NCBI GenBank assembly: GCA_017398335.1
Contig: JAFQGK010000060.1
Span: 1-55,156, forward strand
DNA length: 55,156 nucleotides
Reading direction: 5' to 3'
Source: Bacteroidales bacterium
GTDB lineage: Bacteria > Bacteroidota > Bacteroidia > Bacteroidales > UBA932
Under the pieces are notes generated by a model. That model was given only the letters and a program-made list of their open reading frames with translations. It ran no database searches and was not told where the DNA came from. This document shows, piece after piece, positions 28,531 through 55,057 of the stretch. The stretch's first letter is position 1, and each line of letters begins with the position of its first letter. Both the position numbers and the translations under genes were made by a program.

Positions 28531-28533
28531 GCT

Positions 28534-30019: not shown

Positions 30020-30469
30020 CTATAGCCAAAGAACCGGTTCTTCACCTGCCATAGACTTCAATGCATCAGAATAATGGTATCTTACTGTAGCCGGTATTGT
30101 CTTCCTGACATATGATATTGTTTCACCTGAATCGACTCCCTTCAATACGAGTATATCTCCCTCACGTGAAACCATCTTGGCCTCTTTCCACTGCACCTTG
30201 TCGGAATATACTCCATTCAGGACAGTGCCGTCATAAGTATAGGTGCCGACATATCTTCTGAATGCGCCTTCTCCATCCTTCTGGAAAAGCTGGAAACTCC
30301 TGTCCTTTGCGAAGGACACATATATCTGAAGAGGCATATCGGCCTCTGCTGACTCATAATACCAGTCTCCGAGAACATCTTCCAACAGCATCTCATCTGA
30401 CTGCACACATGAAACCATGGCCAGAGCCGCCACTACTGCAATGAATATTTTATTGATCAATCCTTTCAT
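30020..30469 (-). CDS. Small lipocalin-like lipoprotein (cassette C)
   Basis: From the ATG at 30469 the product is 149 residues with a lipoprotein signal ending in MVSC (C21). The rest is beta-rich: LGDWYYES, then FAKDRSFQLFQKDGE, GTYTYDGTVLNGVYSD and EGDILVLKG, a run of strands like a half lipocalin or up-down barrel. It is clearly related to the 129-residue lipoprotein at 45118-45507, in the same position after an S8 protease. An earlier in-frame ATG at 30490 overlaps the protease stop and makes a poorer signal. Function is unknown; an inhibitor or chaperone of the adjacent protease is a hypothesis based on position and fold class. Confidence 0.75.
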   Translation of the reverse strand: MKGLINKIFIAVVAALAMVSCVQSDEMLLEDVLGDWYYESAEADMPLQIYVSFAKDRSFQLFQKDGEGAFRRYVGTYTYDGTVLNGVYSDKVQWKEAKMVSREGDILVLKGVDSGETISYVRKTIPATVRYHYSDALKSMAGEEPVLWL

Positions 30470-30480
30470 AACCGACAATT

Positions 30481-32475
30481 TTATAGCCATCCTCCATTCT
30501 TGGCCATTCCTGATTCACGAGACACTATCGACACCTCCTTGGAGAAAGCGGTTCCACCCATGACACCCTCTGTTCCAAGGACATCACCTCCTGCGATGGC
30601 ATGTATTCTTATCTTTGCCGAGCCGTTCTTATTACAGCAGATATTCAGCTTGCCGTTCTTTATGAACGGTTCTTCCTCCAATCCAAGAGCATCTCTAGCC
30701 TCATCACTGATCTCTATGTCAAGATAGGTGAGATTCGCTGCCGCTCCACCCATTGGTTCATTCAAAGACAACTTGGTCATTTCACCTGTCTTTGCCACCA
30801 GATTCGGAGTTCCTTCAATCTGCATATAAAGCCTCCATGTATCGATTGCCCCTGTACCCATCTGACGCCAGTAAGGAGTAAGGTCAAAATTGATTCCATT
30901 GGCAACCTTGGAACAAGTCTCAATATAATGGTCAAGATTGTTCACAGAGGTATAAATCATTGCCAGGAAGTCATCATAAGTAAATTCCTTACCTAATTTT
31001 CTTGCATATGACAGTGCCAGAGCTACAACTCCAGACACATGAGGGCACGCCATGGAAGTTCCCTCCATATATCCATAATCTGTATCATACTCTTTGCACT
31101 CGCTTGGCACCGTTGAAAGTATTGTCGCTCTGTCAGACTCTGTTGTCATGTTGATTGACGAGTCGCCTCCTGGCGCAGAAATATTCGTACCGGGACCATA
31201 GTTAGTGTATACAGCCGGGAGGTAGTCAGGGCCGAAAGCTGCTACTGCGATATAATCCCTATGTGCCGCCGGATAACCGGCAAGATGATAGGCATCATTT
31301 CCAGAAGCAAAGATCACGAAATTCTTATCTACCGGTGAATATGGCTGCCTGTAATTAAAGAAATAATCCAAGCCGACTTTTTCAACGCCGTATGTCAGTT
31401 CAAACTGGCCGTCCGAAGTTACCATACCGCCGGCAAGTCCAAAAGAGCACTGAAGGATACAGGCCCCGTTATTTGCGGCATATTCATATGCCTTGGCTCT
31501 GGAGGCCACGGTTGCGGATGAATTTCCAGAGAAAACCTGACAAGACATGATTCTGACACCGTCACCATTGCCGGAGCCTCCGGCAACGCCTCCCACACCG
31601 ATTCCATTATTGTTCACAGCGGCAACGGTTCCGGCCACATGGGTTCCGTGTCCCCTATCACCATCTTCATTCCATGTGATGTCCTTAGGATATTCGGAAG
31701 TACTGAGGAAGTTCCAGCCATGGATATCATCCACATAGCCATTACCGTCATCATCGATATCATTGTCGGGAATCTCGCCTGCATTCACCCACATGTTATC
31801 TATAAGGTCAGGATGAGTATATTTCACTCCTTCATCACATACTGCCACGATGATTTCCGGATCACCGGCGCATAGCTTCCAGGCTTCCTTGACATTGATG
31901 TCGGCTCCCTCACGTGAAGTCTGGGCAACACTAAGGTCTACGTTATTTACATAATGCCACTGGTCTGGAAGAAGGGGATCATTATATGGAAGGTCGAACT
32001 CTCCATATGCTTTTGGCTCATAACGGTAAGGAGTACCTTCGCTGCCATAATTTCTTTGCACGACAGTATTGAACTGCACATGTTCTACTGATGCAACCGA
32101 AGCGAACCTTTCTGCCACTGCCGACGGATTCTGCCTGTCCTCGAAAGTTACAACATACCATCTGTGAAGACCCTTGGAACGGGCAAGAGCATTATCTGAC
32201 ACGAAAAGTCTCTCCAGATGCTTTACACCAGTATCTTCACACGCCTCCTCAAACGCAAGATCCGATGCGCCTCTGCCAAGTTCCTGAACCAGTTCCTCAC
32301 TCAGCATCAGAAGCATGGTCTCCTCATCAGCATCCTCAGGGGAATTGACTACCTTTGCAGCATACGCAGAAGCGGCATCCATTCCGGTATCCCCTGACAC
32401 AGGTCCACCGGTTTCCGCACACCCTGCCATCATAACAGATGCCACAATCAAGGTACCAACTGTTTTTCTTAACAT
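30481..32475 (-). CDS. S8 subtilisin-like serine protease lipoprotein (cassette C)
   Basis: The 664-residue product has a lipoprotein signal (MMAGC, C19), a propeptide-like region (about 45-190) and a subtilase domain. The triad is D214 (VAVCDEGV), H276 (GHGTHVAGT) and S474 (GTSMACPHVSG), with oxyanion N393. The Asp motif is DEG where most subtilases have DTG or DSG. A beta-rich extension (about 550-664) follows and the protein ends in GGWL; its paralogue at 45518-47491 ends in QGWL. It should be a surface or periplasmic endopeptidase. It sits 27 bp after a large lipoprotein gene and 11 bp before the lipocalin-like gene, downstream of SusC/SusD. Confidence 0.93.
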   Translation of the reverse strand: MLRKTVGTLIVASVMMAGCAETGGPVSGDTGMDAASAYAAKVVNSPEDADEETMLLMLSEELVQELGRGASDLAFEEACEDTGVKHLERLFVSDNALARSKGLHRWYVVTFEDRQNPSAVAERFASVASVEHVQFNTVVQRNYGSEGTPYRYEPKAYGEFDLPYNDPLLPDQWHYVNNVDLSVAQTSREGADINVKEAWKLCAGDPEIIVAVCDEGVKYTHPDLIDNMWVNAGEIPDNDIDDDGNGYVDDIHGWNFLSTSEYPKDITWNEDGDRGHGTHVAGTVAAVNNNGIGVGGVAGGSGNGDGVRIMSCQVFSGNSSATVASRAKAYEYAANNGACILQCSFGLAGGMVTSDGQFELTYGVEKVGLDYFFNYRQPYSPVDKNFVIFASGNDAYHLAGYPAAHRDYIAVAAFGPDYLPAVYTNYGPGTNISAPGGDSSINMTTESDRATILSTVPSECKEYDTDYGYMEGTSMACPHVSGVVALALSYARKLGKEFTYDDFLAMIYTSVNNLDHYIETCSKVANGINFDLTPYWRQMGTGAIDTWRLYMQIEGTPNLVAKTGEMTKLSLNEPMGGAAANLTYLDIEISDEARDALGLEEEPFIKNGKLNICCNKNGSAKIRIHAIAGGDVLGTEGVMGGTAFSKEVSIVSRESGMAKNGGWL

Positions 32476-32502
32476 ATATAATCTTCTTTAAATTTCTGGT
32501 TG

Positions 32503-34968
32503 TTATCTTTCAACTGCCTCAAAACCAGTTGATTCAAGACCGTTATAAGGAATCATCTGGAATTCATTCACCGGAAGAGCATTGAGATCCAGATAATTCT
32601 TGATATACCTTCCTGAGCGCGCCAGCTCGGCAGCCGATCTTATAAAGCCGTCAAATGTTTCGACATTGTTGACAGGTCCCCTCACTATCAGATTATGGAA
32701 CTGTCCGATCTGGCCCATTGTGACGGTTTCATCTTCCTCCTCGTCATCTTCTTCAGTAACGAGCATACCGTTCTCCGCTATAAGCCTGTCATCAACATCG
32801 GGTCTGATCAGCAGCATATCGGTCACAATTCCAAGCAGGCCGTTCATCATGGTATGGCTTTGATCGGCATATGCCAGCAAAGCCAGTCCCTCACATTCCT
32901 CACCATAGTCAGCGAACTGTCCGGAATCCACGATGGCAAATATACCATCGCTGACATATCCACCCAAAAGGCCTACTCTACCTCCATATAACGCACCGGA
33001 TGCCGTATACATATATACCAAAGGATAATAGATAGATCCCTCATACACAAAATGATCGAATGCCTGTTCGAAATTATAAAGGAAGCCGTCAAGATAAACG
33101 AAGGTCATCTTGTCCTCCTTCATGTTGAAATTCTTTCTCGCATGTGGGAAAAGGCCTGAAATCGACGCATAACTATAACCTGGCATACTTCCTGAACCTG
33201 GTGAGATGATAGCATCTCCAAGGTATTCCCTTGAATACATTCCATTCTCAATGGCGTAATAACGATACTCACCGCAATAGCCATCAAGGTTGGCAGGAAT
33301 AAGGTCCTGACTGATATCCGAAAGATCATATTGTGCAAGACGGGCATCCCATTTACCTTCTGTAGACCTGCATGCCGTAAAGACTTTCTCTCTGTAACCG
33401 TTATAAGCATCCACTACAAGGATATATTCGGTGCCCGGAACAAGGTAACCCTGCTTCAAGGAGAGACCTGTACTGTTCACAAGATCCAGACTGGCCTTGT
33501 TCATCTGGTACTCCTTCATCTCACTGAGAATAACATCCGGGTTCTTATCCCACTCGCTCTTTTCATAAATTCCGGCATGTATGCGCTGAATATTCTTGCC
33601 ATTGATATAAAGTTCCAGAGAATTCTTCGATGTAAGTCCTTCAGAAGCATATTTATCAGAGACCGTAAGACCACATGACAGAATCACCTGCTTTCTGTCA
33701 CCACGGGCATCCTCGGCATTCAGATAGCCGAAACTTACATTTGAATACTTCCGGATATTACCAGAAGCATCGAATCCCACAGCAACAAGCGAATAAACTC
33801 CTGTCTTTTCGAAAGAAAGATTCAGTTGAGCCTCCTTCTTGAGCTTCCTGACATTCTCGGTGATCAGCCCCTGTGCCATTTCCTCAGCCCTGGCCGCTGC
33901 CGCTGTTTCAGTAATCGTTCCCTCGAAGGCAGAAAGCCATACCTGAGTGATATCACGTCCGAAATCAACATCCACCGGAATCATTCCATTCTGATCGGAA
34001 ACACCTACAGTCATGTCCACATCATATTCCTTGGCTCTATAGCCGGGAAGGATAATACGATGATTTCCTGAAGAATTGGCAGAATACCATCCCATAAGCT
34101 CAAGCTTCATCTGAAGAGAGCCTGAAGGGAATTCTATCACACCCTCACTAAGTTTTCCATATACTGAAGTAATTGAAGCGCCGAAATCAGCCGCATTCTC
34201 AGTCACATAAGAACCTATCGAAACCTCACCATAATCGGAATGCAGGATAAGACCACACTTGAAAGTAGGAATCCATACTTTATCCGGATCGGTTGCATCA
34301 ACGTATGTATATGACTGGTACACACAGTTAGAGGACATGTTTCCTCCGAATATTCCGGACATATATGCATTGTTGTACACATCATACATCCTGTAATATC
34401 CGGGCATATCGTCTCTTTCCTGAATCTCGATATCCCGTTCATAATCCTTGCTGGATACTGAGAACCAATCCTGAAAGACTGCATCACGATATTTTCCAGT
34501 CAACTCACCATTCGGTCCCTTCAGTGAATTCCACTGAATCATTGTCACACTGAACTGAATTGAAGAACTGTTCTTCGAATACTTTGAGACATACTCGTCT
34601 CCATCAATCTCCAGAGTACAATCATACGTAACACCGATTTCAATGGAAGGGAAGGTAACGACAAGATCAGCTACCGGTTCCTCATCCTTGAATTCTATTT
34701 CATAGACCGAGAACACATGAGCAGGATCGGTTATCTTGACAGGGACATTCAGGTCGCCCTCTGTATTTGTTCTCCTCACCTTGAAAGTAAATACTGTCGG
34801 GTCAGTCGGTTCTATCTGAATATCTCCTGTGCCTGACTGAACCGGGAAATATACCCCATAGCAATTTTCATTATCCGCTTCTCCCGGCTGATATCTCAGT
34901 TCCTCCTGACACGATACCACGGCAAGAGAAATCAGGATTGTCATAAAATATATGAAATGTCTTTTCAT
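32503..34968 (-). CDS. Large multidomain surface lipoprotein (cassette C)
   Basis: The 821-residue protein has a lipoprotein signal (AVVSC, C20). The N-terminal domain (about 35-150) starts with the motif ENCYGVYFPVQSGTG and reads like an Ig-like sandwich (FTFKVRRTNTEGDLNVPVKI). The middle holds Fn3-like strands (KTGVYSLVAVGFDASGN) and a Tyr-rich beta region. The C-terminus has an acidic run (EEDDEEEDE) and a helical tail. It is homologous along its length to the 860-residue protein at 47565-50147. Its position right after SusD matches that of SusE/SusF-type surface binding proteins, so it may bind the cassette's substrate, but no carbohydrate-binding family is recognisable. Confidence 0.75.
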   Translation of the reverse strand: MKRHFIYFMTILISLAVVSCQEELRYQPGEADNENCYGVYFPVQSGTGDIQIEPTDPTVFTFKVRRTNTEGDLNVPVKITDPAHVFSVYEIEFKDEEPVADLVVTFPSIEIGVTYDCTLEIDGDEYVSKYSKNSSSIQFSVTMIQWNSLKGPNGELTGKYRDAVFQDWFSVSSKDYERDIEIQERDDMPGYYRMYDVYNNAYMSGIFGGNMSSNCVYQSYTYVDATDPDKVWIPTFKCGLILHSDYGEVSIGSYVTENAADFGASITSVYGKLSEGVIEFPSGSLQMKLELMGWYSANSSGNHRIILPGYRAKEYDVDMTVGVSDQNGMIPVDVDFGRDITQVWLSAFEGTITETAAAARAEEMAQGLITENVRKLKKEAQLNLSFEKTGVYSLVAVGFDASGNIRKYSNVSFGYLNAEDARGDRKQVILSCGLTVSDKYASEGLTSKNSLELYINGKNIQRIHAGIYEKSEWDKNPDVILSEMKEYQMNKASLDLVNSTGLSLKQGYLVPGTEYILVVDAYNGYREKVFTACRSTEGKWDARLAQYDLSDISQDLIPANLDGYCGEYRYYAIENGMYSREYLGDAIISPGSGSMPGYSYASISGLFPHARKNFNMKEDKMTFVYLDGFLYNFEQAFDHFVYEGSIYYPLVYMYTASGALYGGRVGLLGGYVSDGIFAIVDSGQFADYGEECEGLALLAYADQSHTMMNGLLGIVTDMLLIRPDVDDRLIAENGMLVTEEDDEEEDETVTMGQIGQFHNLIVRGPVNNVETFDGFIRSAAELARSGRYIKNYLDLNALPVNEFQMIPYNGLESTGFEAVER

Positions 34969-34989
34969 CGTCGTAGGAAATTTATCAGA

Positions 34990-36705
34990 TTATTCTTCGG
35001 CCATAGGGATCTTGTTTGACGGATCCGGATTGTTTGTTTCATCTGTGATAGCAGTATTTGACTGGAACTCAACACGAGTCACCACGATATTCCATTGAGG
35101 AGAGCGTCCTTCTGTCGCCCCAAGGCGGAATACAGAAGGATGGTTTGAACCGGCAAACGCTCTGTTGATACCTACATCCAGACGTTTGTAATCAAACATC
35201 AGAATACCCTCGCCCCAGAACTCTATTCTCTTCTGAAGCATATACTCAGTCTTGAAATCCTCCCATGTCGAAGGATTCCTGTCATAACTTGAATAACGGT
35301 ACTCCTTCATAAAATCCTGAAGCAGCTTCACTCCCTCTGTAAACTGAAGATTTGCCTTTGCCTCCATTTCAATGAAATACATCTCCTCAATACGCATCAG
35401 ACAGTAATCTCCCGCGTTTCCGATATTGAAATCCGAACATTCTCCCTGAGCGGGGCGGAACTTGAGAGCCACATATGACTTTGCCGGCTGGGCTCCATTC
35501 AGGAAATTATCGCGATCTTCCTCGCTTCCGGCAAACTTATAGTCATAATAATCAGTACGTTCAGGGTCCAGCCATGAATGTTTGCGGAAATCGGCATCCG
35601 GAATCTGGTCATAAAGGGCACTAGCCGAGCCAAACTGAGCATATCTTCCATAACCCCAGGCGGCTTCTGCCGACATATGAGAGATATAGGTCAAAAGATT
35701 ATTGAGGACTTCGGAAGAAACCGTTATACCCCATATCCATGCATTCTGCGATGTACCGTTATTGAATCCGTTGGAAGGGTCCTCCCACTGAGCCTGAGTC
35801 AGAGGTGTCTTGCCGCTTTCATCAATCACCTTTCTGGCATACTCCGCTGCTTTTGCATATGCTTCATACTGAGTCAGAGGCAGAATATCCGGATTAGGGT
35901 TCACTCCCTTATTCTCCTTATAGGCAGCACCAAGCTCGATATATGCCCTGGCATAAAGTCCATAGACAGCCATAAGAGTCGGAGCCGTAAAGGTTGTCTT
36001 TGATTTGTCAAGATATTTCTCAGCCCTTGCAAGATCGTCAAATATGAATTTATACATCTCCTCTCTCGGAACTCTTGGATTTCCTTTGGTGTCATCGATT
36101 GTCGTATACTCATCAACGATAGGGACAGTCAGACCGGCTATATGTCTTACATCCGTATACTTGTTCAGTTTTGGTTCATAAAGTCTTGCAAGGTCGAGAT
36201 AGAACCATGCCCTGTAGGCATAAGCCTGGCCGATAATATGCTTGAACTCGACATCTTCCTGATCCGTTCCATTCTCATCAATGATAGGCTTCATGGAAGC
36301 GATCACGTCATTGGCAAGTCTGATCAACGTGTAGTAATAATCCCAGAAATAAGCACAATAAGTGTACTCGGATCCCTGAGCCATATTCATGTCATACGCA
36401 TAGAAGCGGTTGTAATATGGGTTGTCCGACATCGTTGCCAGATCCTCCAACATATGTTCCATGCGAAGATGGACTCCGGGTATACCGAAATCCGTATGGT
36501 CTCCATAAGAGCTGGCATAACCGGCAACTCCTGATGCATACAGAGTCGCAGGAATCGAATTTATCATCGACTTCAAGGCAGACTTAGATGCCGACACCTG
36601 TGCCTGGGTTACAGAACTTCCGATAGGAATCGTCTCCTCAATGCAGGATACTGCAGAAAGTACAGCGCAAACAGCTGATAAAATGACATTTAATATTCTT
36701 TTCAT
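34990..36705 (-). CDS. SusD/RagB-family surface lipoprotein (cassette C)
   Basis: SusD-type proteins form the lid over the SusC barrel and bind the substrate outside the cell. From the ATG at 36705 the protein is 571 residues with a lipoprotein signal (LSAVSC). It has the TPR-type helices of the family: GQAYAYRAWFYLDLARLYEP, then LTVPIVDEY, NPRVPREEMYKFIFDDLARAEKYL, and a C-terminal FWGEGILMFDYKRL. A TTG at 36720 would extend the frame but is not needed. It lies 16 bp after the partner susC and 21 bp before the large lipoprotein gene, and closely resembles the SusD at 40104-41789. Confidence 0.92.
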   Translation of the reverse strand: MKRILNVILSAVCAVLSAVSCIEETIPIGSSVTQAQVSASKSALKSMINSIPATLYASGVAGYASSYGDHTDFGIPGVHLRMEHMLEDLATMSDNPYYNRFYAYDMNMAQGSEYTYCAYFWDYYYTLIRLANDVIASMKPIIDENGTDQEDVEFKHIIGQAYAYRAWFYLDLARLYEPKLNKYTDVRHIAGLTVPIVDEYTTIDDTKGNPRVPREEMYKFIFDDLARAEKYLDKSKTTFTAPTLMAVYGLYARAYIELGAAYKENKGVNPNPDILPLTQYEAYAKAAEYARKVIDESGKTPLTQAQWEDPSNGFNNGTSQNAWIWGITVSSEVLNNLLTYISHMSAEAAWGYGRYAQFGSASALYDQIPDADFRKHSWLDPERTDYYDYKFAGSEEDRDNFLNGAQPAKSYVALKFRPAQGECSDFNIGNAGDYCLMRIEEMYFIEMEAKANLQFTEGVKLLQDFMKEYRYSSYDRNPSTWEDFKTEYMLQKRIEFWGEGILMFDYKRLDVGINRAFAGSNHPSVFRLGATEGRSPQWNIVVTRVEFQSNTAITDETNNPDPSNKIPMAEE

Positions 36706-36721
36706 ACCTAACCTAATCAAT

Positions 36722-39700
36722 TTAGAACATTATGTTCAGACCAAAGGAAATCGTCCTTACAGGCGAGTTGCCCTCATAGCTGGTACCTCCGGAGAAGCTT
36801 GTACGAGGGTCAAAACCATGACGACGTGACCAGTATACGATATTGTCACAAGTAGCATATATCCTGATCTTGTCAACCTTCACCTTGCGGGTGAGGTCTG
36901 AAGGGAATGTATATCCTATCTGAGCATTCTGAAAATTAAGGTAGCTGGCATCCACAAGGAACCTGTCTGAGGAACCGTTTATACTGAGGTCGGTGTCGCC
37001 ATAGTAGAAACGCGGATGATCTGAATCCGGATTTTCAGGAGTCCATGCATTAAGCACATCCACATGGAAGTTCTTTCCAACTGTTCCGCCTGGAGCTTCA
37101 AGGAAGTTTGCATAACCGGAGTCATATGAAAGTCCACCTACAGAATATGTGAAAGATGCCGAGATATCAAATCCATAGAAAGAGAAAGAAGTTCCGAAAC
37201 CTCCATAGAGCTTCGGAGTCGGATCATCACACAGATATTCTGTAGCCTCGGAATATTCTGAAGTCAAAGTCTGTCCAAGCACATTTCCATCCTTGTCCAG
37301 AACGTCCTTATAATATAGAGGCAGACCGTTGGTCTTGTCTATTCCGGCATACTTAGGCATAAGGAAAGTATTGAGAGGAAGACCTTCTCCTACATATTTG
37401 TTTCCTGACGCATATCCCTTATAACCTTCGATATCACGGTTCTTATGCGTATCCGGAAGCATGATGATCTTATTTGTGTAATGAGTCATGTTAAGATATG
37501 CATCCCAACGGAAGTTTCTCCTGTCAATCACAGCACCGTTCACCGCAAACTCGATTCCGGAGTTTCTCATATCACCGATATTGTCATAATAACCGCTGAA
37601 TCCGTACGAAATCGGAATCGTTACGAAATAAAGCATATCGGAAGTAAGTCTGTAGAAATATTCGACCGAACCGGAGATCCTTCCTCTGAGGAAATCGAAA
37701 TCAAAACCAGCATTGAAGTTGGTGTTGGTTTCCCAAGTGATGTCCGGATTACCGATGGAGCCTCTCTTGATACCGATCTCTCCGTCACTGTTAGTTATTG
37801 CATACATATCGGTATAGAGAAGGTCCGAGATGTTGTCGTTACCCTGGGAACCGATGGATGCCTTAAGTTTCAGCATATCAATCCAAGGGACTCTGAACCA
37901 CGGCTCCGAATTGATTATCCAGCCTCCGCCAAGCGACCAGAAGTTACCCCAGCGGTTATCAGGATGGAACCTTGACGAAGCGTCCCTACGGAAGGATGCA
38001 CTTGCAAATATCCTGTTCTCATAGTCGTACTGAGCCCTGAGGAAATATCCTTCATTGTTGTACTGACTGTATGCGGAACTTGCTGCCTGCATATCGATTA
38101 CAGCTCCTCCAAGTTCCGTATTGTTAAGCGAGAACATCTTGCTCTTCTGAGCACCGAGATTGACACCCGTTGACTTATACCATTCATGTCCGAGAAGGAC
38201 AGTGACATGATGCTTGTAATTGAAGGTTCTGTCCCAGTTGAGAAGCTGCTGGAGATTAAGATAGAAGGACCTTCCATGGCTCTTCGAGATTATTCCTCCA
38301 TTTGCAGCGAACTGGCCATAGTACATATTGCTGACCGAAGTGCTTCTTGTTTCATCGACTCCTATACCGGCATTGAATGTAAATTTGAAATCCTTAAGGA
38401 ACTTGACTTCGACGTATCCGGTGCCGTTGATGGCATTTCCTTCCGAATTGTTTGTATCGAGAGTGACCGTCCTGAGGGCATTCATGTTACCATTGATAGG
38501 ACGGGACAGGCCGGCATTCATTCCATCACCGAAGTCATACATCTCCAGACCATTGGAGTCTATCTTGATGCTGCCGTCCGCATTCCTCACATAGACCGGA
38601 TAAATCGGAGCAACTGACGTAGCATAGCTGAAAATGTTTCCTGAAGCATCTCCATTACCATTGTTCCAGTTGAAGTTGGTGTATCCGGCATTCATTCCGA
38701 TCTTCAGCCAATCCTTTGCCTGATAATCTGTCCTGATACGTGCAGTATAACGCTGCATGTCCTCTCCATCGATAATACCCTTATTGTTCAGATAACCGAA
38801 TGAAGCAAATATCTGTGCATTTCCTGTAGTACCTGCAACGCTGACATTGTATTCCTGCCTGAGTGAAGTCTTGTAAGCCTCCTTCATCCAGTCATCCGGC
38901 TGGAGGAGAAACCTTTCTCCCTTGTAATTCACGATTCTGCCTGGAGTCGCATTAGGATTGAGCCTGCCGTTAGTACCGATGAGACGCTGTTCGGCAGGAA
39001 CATTAAATGTAAGATAGCCGAGACCGCCATCGGTTGCAGGACCTGTAAGATTTGTTGCAGCCTTCAGATTCGCTTCTTCCGGCGTCATACCCTGTTCATA
39101 GCAATAGTAATTGTACAAGGCATTATAATGTGTCTCATAATACAATCCCGGGTCGGTAATATAGTCATAGCTCTCCAGGGCCTTTGTATTGATTCCCCAC
39201 TTAGCGTCAATATTTATCTTCGCCTCTCCCAGTTTGGCTTTCTTGGTTGTGATCATGATGACACCATTCGCACCTCGGGCACCGTACAAAGCATTTGAAG
39301 CGGCATCCTTAAGGACAGTCATCGATTCTATATCCGCTGCATTGAGATTGTTCATATCTCCGGAATAAGGGACGCCATCCACAACATAAAGAGGGGCGGT
39401 TCCCGCTGTAATAGAACTGATTCCACGAATCATGATGGAAGGAGAACTTCCCAGCGAACCTGATGGAGTGGTCATCTGTACACCGGCTACCATACCCTCC
39501 AGAGCTCTTGTCACATCTGATGACTGCGTCTTCTGGATATCAGACGACTTCACCACTGTTGCAGAACCTGTAAAGGACTCTTTCGTCGCTGTACCGAACG
39601 CCACAACTATGGTTTCCTCAATAGTCTCGGTATCTGGATCCATGGAAACATCGTGCTGGGCCTTACCTGCTACCTGCACCTCCACGTTCTTATAACCTAC

Positions 39701-39925: not shown

Positions 39926-39984
39926 TGGTTGTTTATAATTGTTAATATTTTGTCTTTTTGGATTACAGCAAAACCCATAAACTA

Positions 39985-40019
39985 GCACATAATCCTCTGG
40001 CAAACAGAGCATTATGTGC
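39985..40019 (-). promoter_or_regulatory. Strong hairpin in the leader of cassette C susC
   Basis: GCACATAAT (39985-39993) pairs with ATTATGTGC (40011-40019). After one C-C mismatch, CTCTG pairs with CAGAG, and the loop is GCAAA. It lies about 60 bp before the ATG and about 35 bp after the predicted transcription start. There is no T tract, so it is more likely a leader structure than a terminator of the upstream susD. Confidence 0.6.
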
Positions 40020-41789: not shown

Positions 41790-41803
41790 TTTCATCTCCT
41801 CCA

Positions 41804-45060: not shown

Positions 45061-45095
45061 CAAAATCCGCACCTTTCCGGAAGAAAGATGCGGAT
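45061..45095 (-). terminator. Intrinsic terminator of cassette A
   Basis: On the - strand, ATCCGCA pairs with TGCGGAT (45065-45071 with 45089-45095), then one mismatch and CTTTC/GAAAG, with a 5-nt loop, followed by TTTTG. It lies 22 bp after the lipocalin-like gene and before pair B. Confidence 0.75.
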
Positions 45096-45117
45096 AACCC
45101 TATAAAGAGGTGGTATG

Positions 45118-45507
45118 TTACTTCTTATGATAAATATATGTCTCAGCATCCGAGACATCCGGGGTCATTGTAAGAACTGTTCCTTCCACAGAAATCTCAT
45201 AGGTTGCTCCCCAGGATTTTCCATCCGAATATTTTCCGGACAAGGTACGGTCAGTCAACTGCCATACTCCCGTGAAAACATCAGGACGCCCTGCCTCTGA
45301 ACCTATCTTCTGGGACAGGCTGAATGTGTTGTCAGCATTGAAGGTAATGACAATCTCTACGGCCTCTGCCCCGATATTGACAGATTTTGTCTGAATATCA
45401 GCAAGTTCCCACACTCCGGTAATATCCAGAGGAACATTCTTATCCTTTTTGCATCCAAGCGCCAGCACTGCTGCAGCTACAAGAATCAATATTCTAAACT
45501 TTCTCAT
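45118..45507 (-). CDS. Small lipocalin-like lipoprotein (cassette A)
   Basis: The 129-residue product has a lipoprotein signal (VLALGC, C19) and one small beta-rich domain: ITGVWELADIQ, FNADNTFSLSQKIG, GVWQLTDRTLSGKYSDGKSW and EGTVLTMTPD. This is the pattern of Bacteroidetes lipocalin-like lipoproteins. It is homologous to the product at 30020-30469, and both directly follow an S8 protease gene (10 bp gap here). No function is known; a protease-associated role is suggested only by this repeated linkage. Confidence 0.75.
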   Translation of the reverse strand: MRKFRILILVAAAVLALGCKKDKNVPLDITGVWELADIQTKSVNIGAEAVEIVITFNADNTFSLSQKIGSEAGRPDVFTGVWQLTDRTLSGKYSDGKSWGATYEISVEGTVLTMTPDVSDAETYIYHKK

Positions 45508-45517
45508 AACAAACCTC

Positions 45518-47491: not shown

Positions 47492-47507
47492 ATGCTTACT
47501 GCTAAGA

Positions 47508-47542
47508 TTAAAAGGTCTGGTCAGAGAAGACTGGCCAGACCT
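47508..47542 (-). terminator. Internal intrinsic terminator between lipoprotein and protease genes (cassette A)
   Basis: On the - strand, AGGTCTGG (47535-47542) pairs with CCAGACCT (47513-47520), with three further pairs beyond a mismatch and a 6-nt loop, followed by TTTTAATC. It lies inside the 73-bp gap of what otherwise looks like one operon and could reduce protease expression relative to SusCD. Cassette C has no such structure at the matching place. Confidence 0.75.
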
Positions 47543-47564
47543 CGATTATATTCTTTATATCAGA

Positions 47565-50147
47565 TTAACGAAGGCTGATATTTTGATTTTTTATGATAGC
47601 ATCTCTTCTTGAAGGAGTCTGAACCTTTTCAGTAGAAAGTTCTGCCTTGAAAGCAACAGCCTTAGCTTCTCTCTGACCTTCGATAGATGTAAGCAGGCCA
47701 CGAAGAACAGGAGTGCTCTTGGCAGCGTCGATAATCGAACGGATGTTGCCTCTTGGAGTCTCAACGTAGTTTGTAGGTCCCTGCTTGAGAGCATTGCTGA
47801 TCTTATTGAGCTGAGCCGCAGTAGTCTGAGGAGCCTCTGGTGCAAGACCAGTGTCATCCTTAGCCGGATCTACGAAGAGGAGGTCTGCAATATAATCCAC
47901 ATTACCTACAGGGGATGCGCATGCCTCATCTGAGAAAGCACGGACAAGCCATCCGTTGAAGCCGTAAGAACCTGTTGCATCAACAAATGCCAGATATCCA
48001 TCCTGAACGAAACCTCCCAACATTGTATAAGAATTATTATGTCCATAAAGACCTCCGTCTGCTGTAGCATACATTACACCCATATAATAATTGCCATTTG
48101 TCGAAGGACCGAAATAAGAAGGCAACTGATACAGGACTCCGTCATAGAATTCCATTGTCATTGTATCATCAAAACCGTAGTATTCAGCTGCAGCTCCGAA
48201 GACTCCCTTAACTGAAACATATTCGGTTACGATTCCATAATCATCGGCAGGGAGATCTGCTACTTCACTGTCAGAAATCACGACCTGACCGCAATATTCT
48301 CTGGTTGAAGACAGATTCATCTTTGAATCAGCGACCTTTGCATAGTGATTATATGTTCCGAAGAATCCTTCTGAATTAGCAGGGATCAACTCGTCAGCGA
48401 TATCAGCCATGCTGAAATTCATATATACCGGATGCGGTTCACCAGTTGTATAGAATCCTTCTGAAAGGAAGAACTCTGTCGCATAGCCATTGCTGGCAAT
48501 AGCTAAGAGATAATACTCTGTACCCGGATTCAGTCCATCAACGACACTTACGAGACCTCCATCATTGATTGTTGCAAGAGTTTCCGGATCAACTGGCTCA
48601 GACGATGCCACAGTACCTATGCAAGCCTCCATACCCTTAGCAAGATCAATTGAAGAGAATATTCCGAACTTCACATACTCAAGGTCTGAACCATACATCC
48701 AGTACTCGAGAGCATAATCCGTGTCAACTCCTTCAGGAACATATTTCTGCGCAGATCCAACACCTACTGTAAGCACTACACGGACTTCGTCATCAGCAGC
48801 AACGTAAGAGAATGCCACAGATGAATTTTCCTGTACATTTCCTGCCTCGTCATATCCCACTGCAACGAGTGTATAGACACCTGTTGTCTGAAGTGAAACT
48901 GAGAGCACATTGTTCTCAGCAAGTTCTGCCGCAGTAATGGTTGCAGCCTCAACTGTACCGGCAGCAATTTCCTCAGCCTTGTTTGCAACCTGACCAGGGA
49001 AGAGTTCGCCCTCAAATACAGCATATTTGATTGAAGCGACATCTGCACCGGCATTGACTCTGACAGGAAGCTGTCCTTCAACGCTCTGACCTGCAACAAG
49101 TTCGATCGAGTAATCAGTTCTCACAAAACCGTCAGCAAGGGCAACAACATCAAATGTGTCAGGAGTCCATCCACCTTTCAAAGAAGGAATGTAGTACCTC
49201 AGATTGAAATGGAATCCACCATTTCCATCATAATAAGACTGATCGTATGTTCCAGGGTTCTTTGCAAGAAAACCAGCCCAGTCAGGCCATCCGCCTGGAT
49301 ATCCTCCATCGGTTGTGAGGAAATGGAACCAGTCATAGAAATATATAGGATTTGCAGCCTGTGACTCAGGCTTCGAGCCCCAGTCAGCATAGTCAAAACC
49401 GAAGTACTGCTTCTGGACATCGATAACCTGGTATCCATCAGCATTTGTAAGGTTGGTGTTCCATATAAAGTTGAAGGTAACACCGACAAGGTCACCCCAT
49501 ATACCTACCGGAACAGGATTGCCACTCTCATCCAGATATGGAGTACCATCTTCGTTAAGATAAACATCCTGACAAGTCGCTACGCATGTACGAACTCCAT
49601 CCACTTCATAATACTTGATCTTTGCAGTGTGGACTTCACCCCACCAGCCTTCGTAGAATGTAACGAGAGCCGGCTCGTTTGTCTGAGGATTAAGGAAATC
49701 AATCCACTCTACCCTCAACACAGAGAAATCAACATAGGTCGCGCCCTCCGAGTAGCGTGAAGCATACAAAGGATCCTCGATAGAAAGCTGAAGCTTATAC
49801 TCGGTTCCATTTGCAGACTCAGGGAAAGTCACCTTCAAAGTAGACTCAGAAGCACCGTCTTCAAATACGAGTTCTTCAAGCTTGAAGATGCCTTCATGCG
49901 ATTCCTTATACTTCACAGGAACAGTAATCTTGCCCTCTGAGTTTGTTCTTGCCACAGTGAATACAATCTCTGTATCCTGGCTAGGATCATATGTGTGTGC
50001 TCCGGTAGCCTCCTGTGCCGGGAAATATACGCCATAGCATCCTTCTACGTCTGCCGCGCCTTTCTCATATCCTTCCTCCTTGACACAAGCCGTGAAAGCA
50101 AGTATCAGAGCTGCCAGAGTAAATATGTATTTGTTAAACTTTTTCAT
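47565..50147 (-). CDS. Large multidomain surface lipoprotein (cassette A)
   Basis: The 860-residue protein has a lipoprotein signal (AFTAC, C21). The N-terminal Ig-like domain starts with VEGCYGVYFPAQEATG, followed by FTVARTNSEGKITVPVKYK. A central region has an Fn3-like unit (TTGVYTLVAVGYDEAGNVQENSS, in part) and many Tyr, Gly and Trp residues. The C-terminal part resembles the cassette C homologue, including VETPRGNIRSIIDAAKS against VETFDGFIRSAAELARS. It occupies the SusE/SusF position behind SusD and probably binds the same substrate at the cell surface. No catalytic motif is visible. Confidence 0.75.
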   Translation of the reverse strand: MKKFNKYIFTLAALILAFTACVKEEGYEKGAADVEGCYGVYFPAQEATGAHTYDPSQDTEIVFTVARTNSEGKITVPVKYKESHEGIFKLEELVFEDGASESTLKVTFPESANGTEYKLQLSIEDPLYASRYSEGATYVDFSVLRVEWIDFLNPQTNEPALVTFYEGWWGEVHTAKIKYYEVDGVRTCVATCQDVYLNEDGTPYLDESGNPVPVGIWGDLVGVTFNFIWNTNLTNADGYQVIDVQKQYFGFDYADWGSKPESQAANPIYFYDWFHFLTTDGGYPGGWPDWAGFLAKNPGTYDQSYYDGNGGFHFNLRYYIPSLKGGWTPDTFDVVALADGFVRTDYSIELVAGQSVEGQLPVRVNAGADVASIKYAVFEGELFPGQVANKAEEIAAGTVEAATITAAELAENNVLSVSLQTTGVYTLVAVGYDEAGNVQENSSVAFSYVAADDEVRVVLTVGVGSAQKYVPEGVDTDYALEYWMYGSDLEYVKFGIFSSIDLAKGMEACIGTVASSEPVDPETLATINDGGLVSVVDGLNPGTEYYLLAIASNGYATEFFLSEGFYTTGEPHPVYMNFSMADIADELIPANSEGFFGTYNHYAKVADSKMNLSSTREYCGQVVISDSEVADLPADDYGIVTEYVSVKGVFGAAAEYYGFDDTMTMEFYDGVLYQLPSYFGPSTNGNYYMGVMYATADGGLYGHNNSYTMLGGFVQDGYLAFVDATGSYGFNGWLVRAFSDEACASPVGNVDYIADLLFVDPAKDDTGLAPEAPQTTAAQLNKISNALKQGPTNYVETPRGNIRSIIDAAKSTPVLRGLLTSIEGQREAKAVAFKAELSTEKVQTPSRRDAIIKNQNISLR

Positions 50148-50167
50148 AATAACTACCTTTTGAATGA

Positions 50168-51808
50168 TTAGTCTGTCACACCGTCAAGAAGTTTACCGTT
50201 CTGGTATTTAACCGGCTGAGTTCCACCTGTATTATCTACAATCGCGAGGTTGGTATTGGTCTCAGTTGTGGTAAATCTCATCAGCCACCAGCCGTCATCT
50301 GGTGTAAGATTGAATCTGAAGTTATCAGGGACATTGCTGTCCTTGCCTTCATGGAAGCGGACAAGCGGCTTGTTCAAACGCCTTGTGTCACCATTCGAGA
50401 ATCCCTCTCCCCAGAGCTCGACACGACGCTGGAACCAGATTTCGTTCTCAAGTGAGCGACCTGTTCCGTCAGCCACATAGTTAGGATCGCGGTAAGTCTT
50501 CACGAAAGACTCAAGAATCTGCTTAGCCTTTGCTGCATCACCACCTTTGGCATAACCTTCTGCCTGAATGAGTATCATCTCCTCAACACGCATGAGCGGC
50601 CAGTCCTCATCATTATCTACACCACCTACGACATTCATTCCGAACTTCACGTTAGTGTAAGGGAGGAATGCCTCTTTGACATCTGTAATCTGAAGGTTGG
50701 CAAGTTCCTGTCCTGAGTAGTTCACACCATCGTAAGGCCATACGATCTTATCAAGGAGCGGAGAGTTGAGGTCTTTGTCAACCCACCAGCCCTTACGTAC
50801 GTCTGTATCGGAAATTCTCTCATAAAGAAGATTATTGATACAAGCATATACCTGGCATGCTGCAGAGTAGCTGTCACCTGAAAGTGAACGGATCCATGAA
50901 CTTGAAGTTGCATAAGGGAAAATCTTCGCAACTTCGAGAGTCATATCGTATCCCCAGATCCAGTTTCCTTCTGCGATATTGTAGAATGATGGAGCCGAGA
51001 GCTGCTCGATAGTAGCTGGAGTATATCCTTCTGCTGCCTTTTCTGCATCCTGTGCAGCCTTGAGCCACTCACCCATATTCAGATATGCTCTTGCTCTAAG
51101 ACCGTAAGCAACCTGCTGGTCGATACGGCTCTTGTCCGGACGTGTAAAGCCTTCGAGTTTCTCGATTGCATATGTAAGGTCCTCAAGGATAAGCTTGTAT
51201 ACTTCCTCAACCGTAGCACGAGGGTTATTTGTAAAGTCAACTGTATTCTCTGTTACGATAGGAACGCAAGGCTTGTCCTTAGCGGTAGAATAGCTGAACT
51301 GGAAATAAGGCGCAAGATTCAGATATGAGAAAGCACGGATTGCACGAGCCTGAGCGATCTGATGGATTGCATCAGGATCCTCTGTATCCGCAGGATAAGC
51401 TTTGATGACATCATTTGCAGCTGCAATCTCATTATAAGGAACTGCATAACGGACATATGGGTTTGCATAGTCTGCATTTCTTGAAGACAATTCACCGCAA
51501 GTCGAGAACCAGTTATAACCGCTGTCTGCGAGAATAACGTCAGCAGCCTCGACATCGCATGAGAATGCCATCATAGGGAAGCCCCAGTCATCAGGACGAT
51601 TAGAAGAGCCGAATACGCTTAAAGGCTCACCTATCTTGGTATACATACCGTTGAATGAGGCATTTACTCGAGATGGGATGCTCACATTGGTAGCTTTCAC
51701 CTGAGACTCAAGAAGAGCACTTCCCTGAGGAGTAATCTCATCCATTTTGCCGCATCCTGCGAGCGTTGCCGCTGCAAGAGCTATCGCTGTATATTTATTG
51801 AGTTTCAT
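50168..51808 (-). CDS. SusD/RagB-family surface lipoprotein (cassette A)
   Basis: The 546-residue protein has a lipoprotein signal (TLAGC, C19). Typical SusD features are YNEIAAANDVIKAYP, QARAIRAFSYLNLAPYFQFSY, CVPIVTEN, NNPRATVEEVYKLILEDL and FQRRVELWGEGFSNGDTRRL. It belongs to the same superfamily as the other two SusD proteins but is much more divergent, as is its SusC partner. It sits 18 bp after susC and 20 bp before the large lipoprotein gene. Confidence 0.93.
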   Translation of the reverse strand: MKLNKYTAIALAAATLAGCGKMDEITPQGSALLESQVKATNVSIPSRVNASFNGMYTKIGEPLSVFGSSNRPDDWGFPMMAFSCDVEAADVILADSGYNWFSTCGELSSRNADYANPYVRYAVPYNEIAAANDVIKAYPADTEDPDAIHQIAQARAIRAFSYLNLAPYFQFSYSTAKDKPCVPIVTENTVDFTNNPRATVEEVYKLILEDLTYAIEKLEGFTRPDKSRIDQQVAYGLRARAYLNMGEWLKAAQDAEKAAEGYTPATIEQLSAPSFYNIAEGNWIWGYDMTLEVAKIFPYATSSSWIRSLSGDSYSAACQVYACINNLLYERISDTDVRKGWWVDKDLNSPLLDKIVWPYDGVNYSGQELANLQITDVKEAFLPYTNVKFGMNVVGGVDNDEDWPLMRVEEMILIQAEGYAKGGDAAKAKQILESFVKTYRDPNYVADGTGRSLENEIWFQRRVELWGEGFSNGDTRRLNKPLVRFHEGKDSNVPDNFRFNLTPDDGWWLMRFTTTETNTNLAIVDNTGGTQPVKYQNGKLLDGVTD

Positions 51809-51826
51809 TGTATATCCTCCTTGTTT

Positions 51827-54800
51827 TTAGAATGTAAGTGTCAAACCTCCGGTAATTGTACGCATGGCTGCATATCCACCGCTGTTAAGACCTGAATTTG
51901 AAGTCATGGAACCAAGTCCTACAGAGAAACGTGGATCGACACCCTTACGTGCTGATGTTACAGCAAGGTTATCACCTGCAACATATACTCTCAGACCAGC
52001 AACTTTGATCTTGTCCATCCACTTCTTAGGGAATGTATATCCAAGTGTCACATTGTTCACGCTGAGATAGTTAGAACTGATGAAGTAGCAGTCTACAGCT
52101 GTCTGACCTACACTTGTATCACCATCAAGACGTGGAACATTTGTATTTGGATTCTCTGGAGTCCAAGCCTTGAGTGCGTCCTTATGCCATGCTGTTCCTA
52201 CACCATTTGAAGTGTGCATCAATGACTGATATGTTCCGTCATAGTACTTACCGCCAGCCTGATATGCAAGCTGAACAGAAAGGTCTACTCCGTAAACTCT
52301 CAATGTCGTTCCGAAACCTCCATAGACCTTTGGAAGGATGCTTCCGTTCTCAAACTGGTCTGAATCAGCAAACACATCTGTTGTCTTGGTCTCTCCTGTC
52401 CAGTTACCCTCTTTGTCGAGAACCTTCTGGTAATAAAGTCCCTTTCCTGTCTCAGGATCAATGCCTGCAAACTTATGGATATAAGACTCATAAAGGGAAC
52501 CGCCGATCTTATAGATGAAGTAGCTACCCCTGATACCGTTTTCAGCAACACTCTCGTCGAGAGCAAGAATCTTGTTGGTATAGTGGCTGATATTGAAGTT
52601 CCAGTCCCACTGGATGTTCTTTGTATTGATGATGTTTCCACCGAGAGTAACCTCAACTCCGTTATTGCGGATTGAGCCTACGTTCACAGGATACATACCT
52701 GTAGGATTACCTGAAGAAAGCGGAACATCCTTGCTGTAAAGAAGATCTACTGTAGTACGTGAGAAGTACTCCACCGTTCCGTTAAGATATCCGTTGAAGA
52801 GTTCGAAATCAACACCTACGTTGAATGCATGTGAAGACTCCCATGTCAGATCCTGATTACCCTTGTAGCTAAGAGTGAGTGAATAGTCACCTGTTTCCTC
52901 ATTATATGAGTGGGTATAATTGTCTGCATATGGGTAATATTTGATCGCAGATGATGAGTTCGGATAGAGGCTGTCATTACCCTGTACACCCCAGGATGCC
53001 TTGAGTTTCAACATGTTGACCCAATCTGCTCCGCTCATGAAGCCTTCCTGGCTGATAAGCCATGCTGCACCGACACTTCCGAAGTTACCCCAACGATGTC
53101 CCTTTGCGAATCTTGAAGATGCATCACGACGATATGAAGCACTTATGAAATACTTGCCGTCATAATCATACTGAGCTCTTGCGAGGAAACCCTGAGTGAT
53201 ATAATCAGCTGTATAGGATGATACGTTCTTCTGTGATGTTCCGTCCGCATTGCCAAGTTCACCTACAGTCGGATCAAAGAGATGGTCGTTCGATCCGGAA
53301 AGGCTCTGAATCTTCAATGAATAAAGCTCATATCCGGCGAGAACATCGAAATTATGCTTGCTGCCCTTGAAATCTGTCTTGTAAGACACAAGGTACTGGG
53401 TGTTAAGCGCAAACATTCTCTGATGACCGACGCTAGCCTGACCGTCAACGCTTGAACCTGAAGCGAATGCGCTGTAAAGATAGTTGTATCTTGTATTGTC
53501 ATTCATCAGACCGGCATTGGCAGTGATATCGAGTCCCTCGATAGGTGAAATCACTACACCGACCTTTCCATTCAGGACATCAGCATAAGATTTCTTAGAG
53601 TTGATCTCATTGTCACGAACGGCATTACCCATGATGTTCGGACGCTTGAAATTTGTCTGGTTGGCATCATACACCTTGTAGCCGTTCTCATACATGATGT
53701 TTCCTTCTGCATCACGTACATAAAGCGGATAAATAGGAGCGATGTTATTGGTAATATAGAATACGTTTCCTGATGAGCCGTATCCGCTATCGTATGAAGC
53801 AGCCTTCGAATCAGAGTGAGAGTAGCTTACGTTAGTTGTAACCTTGAACCACTTCTTTGCCTGATAGTCAGCATTCACACGGGCTGTAAATCTATGATAG
53901 TCAGAATTGCTTACAATACCGCCATCATCAAGATAACCTGCACTTGCATAGTAAGAGAACTTGTCCTTTCTGCCGCTTACCGAAAGATTATACTCCTGAC
54001 GGAACGAGTTGTGGAATGTCTCGTCATACCAGTTATCCGGGATATAAGTATATGTACCGTCAGAATATCCGAGCGTTGCGTTAGGATTGAGCTTGAAGTT
54101 GGTTCCGATGAATTTCTGACCTTCCGGTACAGAGTAGACCTTATAACCGAGGCCGCCGTTCTTCTCATCAAAGAGGTTTGCATCAGCAAAAGCATAAGCC
54201 TCAGCCGGAGTCTTGCCGGCATACACCTGCGAATTATAAAGCATCTTATAGTGAGTCTCATAATAGAGAGCAGGGTCATTGATCACGTCATACTGAGGTA
54301 TCAGACGAGAGTTTGAACCCCATTTCGCATCGAATTTCACAACTGCATCCGAACTCTGAGCCCTCTTTGTAGTAATGAGAACGACACCGTTGGCACCACG
54401 CGCACCATAAATAGCCGATGCTGCAGCGTCCTTAAGTACCGACATTGACTCTACGTCGCTTGGATTGATGTCGGAAATCGAGCCATCATAAGGCATTCCA
54501 TCCACGATATAGAGAGGTGCATTACTTGCACTCATGGATCCGAATCCACGGATACGGATGCTTGCACCACCTGACGCAGGGTCACCTGACGAACCGATTA
54601 CCTGTACACCTGGAGTTGTACCGGAAAGTGCGTTTGTGACATTTGTAGTCACACGATTTTCGATAGTCTCAGCCTTGACCATGGCAGCAGAACCGGTGAA
54701 GGAGCTCTTCGTAGCTGTACCATAAGCGACTACGATTGTCTCCTCTAGGAAGTGAGAATCTTCCTGCATTACGATATGGAGTGGATTTACCGAAACAGGT

Positions 54801-55057
54801 GCAGAAGCGGTCGTCATTCCAAGGAATGTCACGATAATCTCTTTTGCATCTGCCGGAACCGACTTGATTCCGAATTTACCCTCCGCATCTGTGATTGTAC
54901 CGATGGTTGTTCCATTGACAAGCACATATGCTCCCGCTATGGGTTGTCCATCCTTTTCGGCAACGACGGTACCGGTTACGGTAATCGTCTTCTGAGCCGA
55001 AGCGGTGCCTATGCCTAAGATCAGCAAGGCGAGCATCAACAATAAGTTTCGTTTCAT
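51827..55057 (-). CDS. SusC/RagA-family TonB-dependent transporter (cassette A)
   Basis: The 1076-residue product has a signal peptide (1-21), a carboxypeptidase-regulatory-like domain (about 24-98), a TonB-box segment TIVVAYG (107-113), a plug with SIRIRGFGSM (166-175) and LKDAAASAIYGARGANGVVL, and a full barrel ending GGLTLTF. It is expected to import the ligand of the adjacent SusD with TonB energy. It is the first gene of the five-gene cassette A. The 99 bp upstream inside the window show no perfect TAnnTTTG box on this strand; a small hairpin GTGTA-TCTT-TACAC lies at 55094-55107. Confidence 0.94.
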   Translation of the reverse strand: MKRNLLLMLALLILGIGTASAQKTITVTGTVVAEKDGQPIAGAYVLVNGTTIGTITDAEGKFGIKSVPADAKEIIVTFLGMTTASAPVSVNPLHIVMQEDSHFLEETIVVAYGTATKSSFTGSAAMVKAETIENRVTTNVTNALSGTTPGVQVIGSSGDPASGGASIRIRGFGSMSASNAPLYIVDGMPYDGSISDINPSDVESMSVLKDAAASAIYGARGANGVVLITTKRAQSSDAVVKFDAKWGSNSRLIPQYDVINDPALYYETHYKMLYNSQVYAGKTPAEAYAFADANLFDEKNGGLGYKVYSVPEGQKFIGTNFKLNPNATLGYSDGTYTYIPDNWYDETFHNSFRQEYNLSVSGRKDKFSYYASAGYLDDGGIVSNSDYHRFTARVNADYQAKKWFKVTTNVSYSHSDSKAASYDSGYGSSGNVFYITNNIAPIYPLYVRDAEGNIMYENGYKVYDANQTNFKRPNIMGNAVRDNEINSKKSYADVLNGKVGVVISPIEGLDITANAGLMNDNTRYNYLYSAFASGSSVDGQASVGHQRMFALNTQYLVSYKTDFKGSKHNFDVLAGYELYSLKIQSLSGSNDHLFDPTVGELGNADGTSQKNVSSYTADYITQGFLARAQYDYDGKYFISASYRRDASSRFAKGHRWGNFGSVGAAWLISQEGFMSGADWVNMLKLKASWGVQGNDSLYPNSSSAIKYYPYADNYTHSYNEETGDYSLTLSYKGNQDLTWESSHAFNVGVDFELFNGYLNGTVEYFSRTTVDLLYSKDVPLSSGNPTGMYPVNVGSIRNNGVEVTLGGNIINTKNIQWDWNFNISHYTNKILALDESVAENGIRGSYFIYKIGGSLYESYIHKFAGIDPETGKGLYYQKVLDKEGNWTGETKTTDVFADSDQFENGSILPKVYGGFGTTLRVYGVDLSVQLAYQAGGKYYDGTYQSLMHTSNGVGTAWHKDALKAWTPENPNTNVPRLDGDTSVGQTAVDCYFISSNYLSVNNVTLGYTFPKKWMDKIKVAGLRVYVAGDNLAVTSARKGVDPRFSVGLGSMTSNSGLNSGGYAAMRTITGGLTLTF

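Follow-up and report, generated by a model that had tools for sequence, protein, structure and literature searches.

What does a Bacteroidales bacterium do with two copies of a five-gene cassette, each encoding a SusC transporter, a SusD lid lipoprotein, a large lipoprotein (Lip), a subtilase of peptidase family S8, and a small lipocalin-like lipoprotein? This question is raised by contig JAFQGK010000060.1 (assembly GCA_017398335.1; C59 among our contigs), the whole of which is the 55,156-nucleotide (nt) stretch of DNA analyzed here (the window). The genome has 2.2 Mb and is 86% complete. The initial annotation described cassettes A (55057-45118) and B (39925-30020) as having the same gene order and homologous counterparts, and read them as a probable protein-harvesting locus. 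Gene order and coordinates were borne out, and BLASTP confirmed the homology of the counterparts: SusC at 40% identity (E 0), SusD at 27% (2e-37), Lip at 30% and 38% in two segments (3e-50 and 3e-26), S8 at 48% (1e-173), and the lipocalin at 29% (5e-10). What is new here is a conserved, separable GWL tail on the subtilase and its association with the lipocalin-like gene in SusCD/peptidase cassettes that lack carbohydrate-active enzymes (CAZymes). As judged from sequences, the best reading of the cassettes is protein capture, surface cleavage, and peptide import, which we consider probable, with moderate confidence.

Lip was chosen as the marker of the cassette because it is not widespread, and 46 distinct loci had a Lip score above 150. 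Lip matches at E 1e-20, partial matches included, were found in 57 of 200 genomes of the genus and in 11 of 149 genomes of the family. An order-wide sample gave matches in 29 of 393 at E 1e-3; those at full length were confined to the window genome and genome G041, while the others scored below 122 bits. Outside the genus and family of the window, no full-length Lip was seen. The census was performed profile-first; a longest-frame rule had favored opposite-strand frames, and frames of 1121-1442 aa opposite SusD and Lip (L035 10716-14081, L274, and L285) were taken as antisense frames. SusC and SusD were encoded upstream of Lip in 46 of the 46 distinct loci. The subtilase gene followed in 43 of the 44 loci that continue past Lip (42 by the census rule, plus L035), with one gene between Lip and S8 in L278 and L279; the contig ends after Lip in L277 and L282. 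The lipocalin gene followed in 40 of the 42 loci that are not cut off, the misses being L266 and L289. The initial annotation had proposed searching other genomes for the five-gene order, and this order was kept. The five-gene cassette is therefore a genuine conserved unit, and its order is not due to chance.

Lip is the conserved third gene in these 46 loci (Lip A, 47565..50147, 860 aa; Lip B, 32503..34968, 821 aa, recognized by its homology to Lip A; all cassette features given here lie on the minus strand). Neither protein matched a Pfam family over the cut-off or an NCBIfam family at E 0.01, and Lip A had no match in the Protein Data Bank (PDB) up to E 10. A lipobox was found by rule in 38 of 48 Lip frames. 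At least one acidic residue occurs at positions +2 to +7 in all 38 of these frames and at least two in 33. Acidic residues at these positions are the surface-export rule for lipoproteins, and those of Lip fit a surface lipoprotein.

The subtilases of cassettes A (45518..47491) and B (30481..32475) have a lipobox-like N terminus, a Peptidase_S8_N prodomain, and a Peptidase_S8 domain, the latter scoring 152 and 129 bits, respectively, against a cut-off of 21.8. The catalytic columns D206, H264, N380, and S468 are invariant in the alignment. The only solved relative at E 1e-25 was deseasin MCP-01 (126 bits), and the best matches among named genomes came from Candidatus Cryptobacteroides, Alistipes, and Bacteroidales metagenome-assembled genomes (MAGs). 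The A protein ends in -SSNQGWL and the B protein in -KNGGWL, and the GWL codons plus the stop occupy 45518..45529 and 30481..30492. All 41 of the S8 C termini that were readable in Lip loci end in GWL. Since these subtilases were selected by profile and place rather than by their tail, this count is not circular. The tail, typically NGGWL, forms a separable stretch beyond the final conserved segment, which is strand-like; genome G041 has two S8s in other cassettes that stop at this segment and have no tail. Many subtilases of approximately 900 residues in the same genome family end in ..VKL, and we take these to be substrates of the type IX secretion system (T9SS-type). Unlike in the ..VKL proteins, -GWL lies shortly after the last conserved S8 stretch, as assessed by eye.

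Across all loci, the tail was searched as -[G/D]W[L/M]. The 57 distinct ends have a final L in 56 and M in one, and a third-last G in 56 and D in one; these counts are circular because the tails were picked by the pattern. In the S8 tree, 59 of the 84 rows carry the pattern. A single branch separates them from the remaining rows, and no untailed row lies among them; the support for this branch (SH-aLRT 94, by a quick method) is under the 95 mark. Two Alistipes records belong to the tailed group, as do members of genome families f59 and f78. Identity to the window A protein falls to 35-47% among the tailed S8s (12-row alignment A7), and the short end is nevertheless kept, which points to a binding function for the tail. 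In the window's own genome, the GWL-stop pattern matched 23 times against 17 for the reversed control. Three of the 23 end a long frame, and these are the three S8s. The third, which ends in SSNGWL, is on contig C56 (L045, C56:1-19900) in a larger cassette with the order SusC, SusD, several lipoproteins (one LRR-like by eye), S8, a DUF1573-like protein, and a lipocalin-like protein. None of the open-licence papers listed in our literature searches described the cassette or the GWL tail.

In cassettes A and B, the lipocalin-like gene directly follows the subtilase gene. The A protein (45118..45507, 129 aa) scored 27.6 with Lipocalin_4 (PF13648), above the cut-off of 22.4, and the B protein (30020..30490, overlapping the S8 gene by 10 nt) scored 16.8, below it. 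By rule, 58 of 60 tailed S8s have a lipocalin-like gene on the same strand no more than 2 kb downstream, and 59 have one when L035 is counted, in which it was missed by the overlap limit; the sole exception is L266. The corresponding number for non-tailed S8s is one of 57 (L070, a weak match of 28 bits). S8s without a stop in the locus and near-identical ends were dropped from these counts, and the table behind them also dropped rows with 1500 nt or less downstream. As a check on circularity in the lipocalin model, the 2 kb downstream of each of the 57 non-tailed S8s were screened for small lipoprotein-like frames. Nine frames in seven loci were found, of which that in L070 is lipocalin-like; L073 is among the other loci. 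In genome G041, the two tailed S8s retrieved have a lipocalin gene and the two non-tailed S8s retrieved have none.

The third gene of the cassette varies. It may be Lip, a 272-aa lipoprotein (L037), Peptidase_Mx1 plus DUF4302 (L054), several lipoproteins (L042, L045, and L046; some are LRR, DUF4458, or BACON proteins according to the pooled count), or absent (L047). Furthermore, L056 and L058 encode a tailed S8 and a lipocalin with no SusCD in the same gene run. Because the tail and the lipocalin stay together while the third gene and SusCD vary, the lipocalin is the most economical candidate for the ligand partner of the tail. A conserved tail next to a small lipocalin-like neighbor suggests that the two proteins work together. 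The lipocalins often have hydrophobic C termini of their own: the last two residues are hydrophobic in 39 of 57 lipocalins, whereas the other proteins encoded in these loci show this in 40 of 488 (Fisher p 6e-24, relatedness uncorrected). The window B protein ends in -EEPVLWL, while the window A protein has no hydrophobic end. Two further arrangements were noted. L059 (6711-12337, an Alistipes sp. MAG) has two pairs of tailed S8 and lipocalin in a row behind one SusCD pair, and L050 (11272-16250) has an MlrC-like gene, a tailed S8, and then a protein of 489 aa whose domains are FN3-like and whose lipocalin-like end terminates in -KFL.

We propose the following working for the cassette. Lip, in a role assigned here by inference, and SusD would capture protein on the surface of the cell. 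The lipid-anchored subtilase, with its N-terminal prodomain presumably removed as in its family, would cut this protein into oligopeptides, and SusCD would take them across the outer membrane. SusCD pairs import in a "pedal bin" manner driven by TonB energy. Peptidases of family S46 and POT transporters encoded in the same genome may complete the use of the peptides. A Bergeyella subtilase cleaves off its own N-terminal propeptide according to the available text of PMC11982257, and the lipid anchor of the window subtilases may therefore be lost on activation. The conserved -GGWL tail would be a ligand of the adjacent lipocalin-like lipoprotein, which might keep the active protease at the membrane or restrain it there after the lipidated prodomain is removed. 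In its full form, this idea states that the N-terminal lipid is lost with the prodomain, that -GGWL docks in the lipocalin calyx, that the protease is kept on the cell that bears the importer, and that the tailed protease and the lipocalin form a portable module of several SusCD cassettes. We found no description of such a retention or control device, and we put this full form forward tentatively, suspecting that it is more likely wrong than right.

The same association may be explained in another manner, in which the lipocalin-like protein would protect the cell by inhibiting its cognate subtilase, and the hydrophobic C-terminal tails would bind the active site as product-like ligands. Tannerella forsythia has cognate protease inhibitors of this type, the potempins, which are small lipoproteins encoded beside a protease gene. 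The 59 of 60 tailed S8s adjoined by a lipocalin gene and the excess of hydrophobic lipocalin ends are what an inhibitor would lead us to expect. However, a PDB profile search up to E 10, in which potempin structures are presumably present, returned five chains, none named potempin, and the best two were uncharacterized proteins (E 0.004 and 0.008). A reference cited in the available part of PMC11982257 reports that the C-terminal Leu of the Tk-subtilisin propeptide affects binding. Against this, the lipocalin tails vary, that of window A not being hydrophobic, whereas the S8 tail hardly varies. We regard an inhibitor as possible, although rather doubtful. It is compatible with protein harvesting and competes only with the anchoring role of the lipocalin.

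We now return to protein capture, cleavage, and peptide import as the function of the cassette. As the initial annotation stated, glycoside hydrolases, lyases, and sulfatases are absent from the twelve proteins encoded between 55057 and 30020 (Pfam up to E 1), and, by Pfam, these proteins lack the CAZyme that a strict polysaccharide utilization locus (PUL) has together with susCD. It had also named homologous cassettes that routinely contain CAZymes as evidence against its reading, and such cassettes did not appear among the neighbors and members scanned. Of 48 distinct proteins checked singly, GH53 and GH2 were the sole CAZymes, and both are in L056, a locus other than a SusC-SusD-Lip cassette. 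A pooled Pfam scan covered 79 of 95 neighbors, with 25 of the 71 matched families among the matches listed. A candidate lyase in related cassettes (NF058554, 2 of 79 members) was rejected because only the N-terminal part of each protein matched, with scores of 91 and 70 bits where the cut-off is 1100. L054 encodes a second protease family, Peptidase_Mx1/TIGR04549 (342 bits over 75), with DUF4302 in the place of Lip. The MlrC-like gene before the S8 of L050 scored 93 bits, far below the model cut-off of 999, and the single M81 metallopeptidase match in the pooled scan is presumably this gene. The window genome has two genes of the S46 dipeptidyl-peptidase family and POT (PTR2) in two neighboring frames. 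The protein-harvesting proposal is partly supported, namely by the protease in 43 of 44 Lip cassettes, the lack of a CAZyme in the window cassettes, Mx1 in L054, and the S46 and POT genes. Closeness of SusCD to RagAB, the peptide importer to which the proposal had pointed, was not supported by sequence.

SusC A (51827..55057, 1076 aa) is a TonB-dependent transporter with Plug and CarbopepD_reg_2 domains, and its phmmer matches to solved SusC structures were RagA at 353 bits, 8aa4 at 350, and 5t3r at 336, the latter two of which we take to be glycan importers. SusD A (50168..51808, 546 aa; SusD-like_3 and SusD_RagB) scored 121 bits with 3snx and 34 bits with RagB. The best solved match of SusC B (36722..39925, likewise with the expected SusC domains; ATG start at 39925, with the full open frame reaching 40084) was 8aa4, with RagA second, and SusD B (34990..36720, identified with Pfam) had no RagB match at E 0.01. 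We attempted to read specificity from solved relatives of the SusC and SusD proteins of both cassettes; however, peptide and glycan importers were not separated. The sequences of SusC and SusD favor neither.

The question then is whether the cassettes are instead glycan or glycoprotein PULs, in which SusCD imports glycans or glycopeptides, the subtilase removes or trims the carrier protein, and CAZyme genes lie elsewhere in the genome. The better match of SusC B to a SusC outside the Rag system fits this explanation, as do GH53 and GH2 adjoining the tailed S8 and lipocalin in L056. The genome has 21 SusD-like_3 matches, which leave room for shared CAZymes encoded elsewhere. In the available text of PMC6499787, half of the recorded susCD loci are without CAZymes, and remote CAZymes are one explanation offered; in that of PMC11992087, the BT4240-50 locus of Bacteroides thetaiotaomicron joins a protease with glycoside hydrolases on a mucin O-glycoprotein. 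However, outside L056, no CAZyme was present in the 48 proteins checked singly, and the five-gene unit is complete without a CAZyme in tens of loci. We consider a glycan or glycoprotein PUL to be unlikely.

The histories of the five genes were also compared. In the S8 tree, window A is nearest to L266 and L257 and window B to L265 and L261, not to each other. SusC B is 82% and 81% identical to those of L265 and L261, respectively, and 40% to SusC A; SusD and Lip show the same pattern, while lipocalin B has no close partner (36% identity at best). A recent tandem duplication of A and B was rejected because S8, SusC, SusD, and Lip are each closer to the counterparts in other genomes. By these comparisons, A and B are separate old lineages. 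Correlations between the distance matrices of 39 complete cassettes were highest for SusC-SusD (r 0.96), followed by Lip-S8 (0.86), S8-lipocalin (0.80), S8-SusC (0.53), and SusC-lipocalin (0.37), and 0 of 499 permutations were as high for any pair. This fits two modules, the importer and Lip-S8-lipocalin, with some exchange between them. The Lip-S8 value may also be expected if the subtilase were a maturase or sheddase of the lipoproteins of its own operon rather than a feeding enzyme; however, this is very unlikely because the tailed S8 is kept where other lipoproteins replace Lip (L037, L054, L042, L045, and L046) and in L047, which has no third gene at all.

Several observations weigh against protein capture and peptide import, or against the tail and lipocalin link within it. 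The neutrality of the SusC and SusD sequences and the number of SusD-like proteins have been described above. BT_2264, a SusC discussed with peptides in the available part of PMC11817032, was the weakest among the listed matches of SusC A (148 bits). The S46 and POT genes are not special because the control genome Bacteroides ihuae has both. L289 has Lip without an S8, and L266 has a tailed S8 without a lipocalin. Other phyla contribute many of the 57 non-tailed S8s, and the tail and lipocalin link may be a single inherited event, since the tailed S8s are one group. In the window's own genome, the lipocalin profile (A5) found only two lipocalins, and a rebuilt model was needed to find that on C56. 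Linkage alone also gives a correlation that falls along an operon and raises r.

The picture of two cassettes is correct as far as it goes; however, it omitted a third SusC-SusD pair (M, 45004-40104) between them. Twelve genes run in a row from 55057 to 30020: the five of A, the two of M, and the five of B. The remaining frames of at least 120 aa in this span are on the plus strand inside the twelve genes. Three pairs of adjacent SusC and SusD genes on the same strand make the window a SusCD-type nutrient-uptake locus. SusC M (41804..45004, 1066 aa; TIGR04056, 752 bits) and SusD M (40104..41804, 566 aa) are 62% and 52% identical to their B counterparts. The M pair is directly upstream of the SusC B frame, 19 nt separate this frame from SusD M, and M and B form a tandem susCD arrangement (trsusCD; adjacent susCD pairs on one strand). 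A terminator-like hairpin of 14 pairs, a consensus match only, lies between A and M (45065..45095); two terminator-like sites were found in the stretch versus 0.6 expected. Because this hairpin separates A from M while M and B are only 19 nt apart, the layout is likely operon A alone plus a tandem-SusCD operon of M and B. Cassette A starts 99 nt from the contig end, and an upstream regulator, if any, is thus out of sight. In other loci, a family of proteins of up to approximately 740 aa is encoded directly upstream of SusC (11 frames; L038 [15718-19840], L040, L055, L256, L258, and L272), and the members scanned had no Pfam family over the cut-off.

Other genes occupy the rest of the window. 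A gene of peptidase family M3 (19725-21851, minus strand, 446 bits) is approximately 8 kb from cassette B on the same strand and may or may not serve the same peptides; its neighbor (17449-19707) had no Pfam match at E 1e-4. The plus-strand region 9042-17372 encodes an FGGY kinase, an iron alcohol dehydrogenase, and a GH106 alpha-L-rhamnosidase (14124-17372, 946 bits), the last being on the same contig and outside the cassette span. The plus-strand region 22991-29892 encodes a PFL-like glycyl radical enzyme with a radical SAM gene, a patatin, a multi-4Fe-4S protein, and an aldo/keto reductase with a 4Fe-4S domain. Relatives of the latter two are also upstream of the L280 cassette, and L281 has frames of the same two clusters.

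The host is, in our estimation, more probably than otherwise a Cryptobacteroides-like gut Bacteroidales with two SusCD-type protein-utilization operons. If this is right, a defined operon of set gene order serves protein use in a gut genus that has received little study and has at least 200 genomes, and it offers a concrete way to learn which CAZyme-free SusCD loci import peptides. The -GWL tail with the lipocalin is a sequence signature that may be searched for. If the proposed role of the tail is true, it also shows what holds or restrains a surface protease that seems to lack a type IX sorting domain.

The cassette was also compared with known systems. The T9SS-type subtilases of Bacteroidota (approximately 900 aa, ..VKL ends) belong to the same peptidase family and occur in genomes of the same family; however, the window S8s are lipoprotein-like and end in -GWL. 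The cassettes of TIGR04549, the "substrate import-associated zinc metallohydrolase lipoprotein", or Peptidase_Mx1 also encode a protease lipoprotein with SusC/SusD, and both proteases are together in L054. In contrast, Mx1 belongs to another catalytic class, and the family name is silent on a subtilase. RagAB of Porphyromonas gingivalis is likewise a SusC/SusD pair, and RagA ranks first or second among the solved matches of the A and B SusCs, although this match does not separate RagA from other SusCs. According to the available text of PMC11817032, RagAB takes up peptides, and attached peptidases are a matter of speculation; this text describes no subtilase, Lip, or lipocalin encoded with it. 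The B. thetaiotaomicron utilisomes (Nature 2023, PMC7618045) similarly have a SusCD core, extra surface lipoproteins, and a hydrolase, and the glycan utilisome is a model of assembly. However, in the available part of that paper, the additional components are glycoside hydrolases and glycan binding proteins. Further likenesses are to the CAZyme-free susCD loci with a peptidase and the tandem trsusCD loci (Nat Commun 2019, PMC6499787), the latter represented here by M and B. In the available text of that survey of 28,250 susCD loci, 52% were without CAZymes, 11% of those contained sulfatases and peptidases, and approximately 3% of the loci were tandem. They were counted as classes in that text, which mentions no fixed five-gene unit, tail, or lipocalin. 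CAZyme-free susCD loci that bear peptidases are therefore already known as a kind, and the window cassettes are a defined variant of it.

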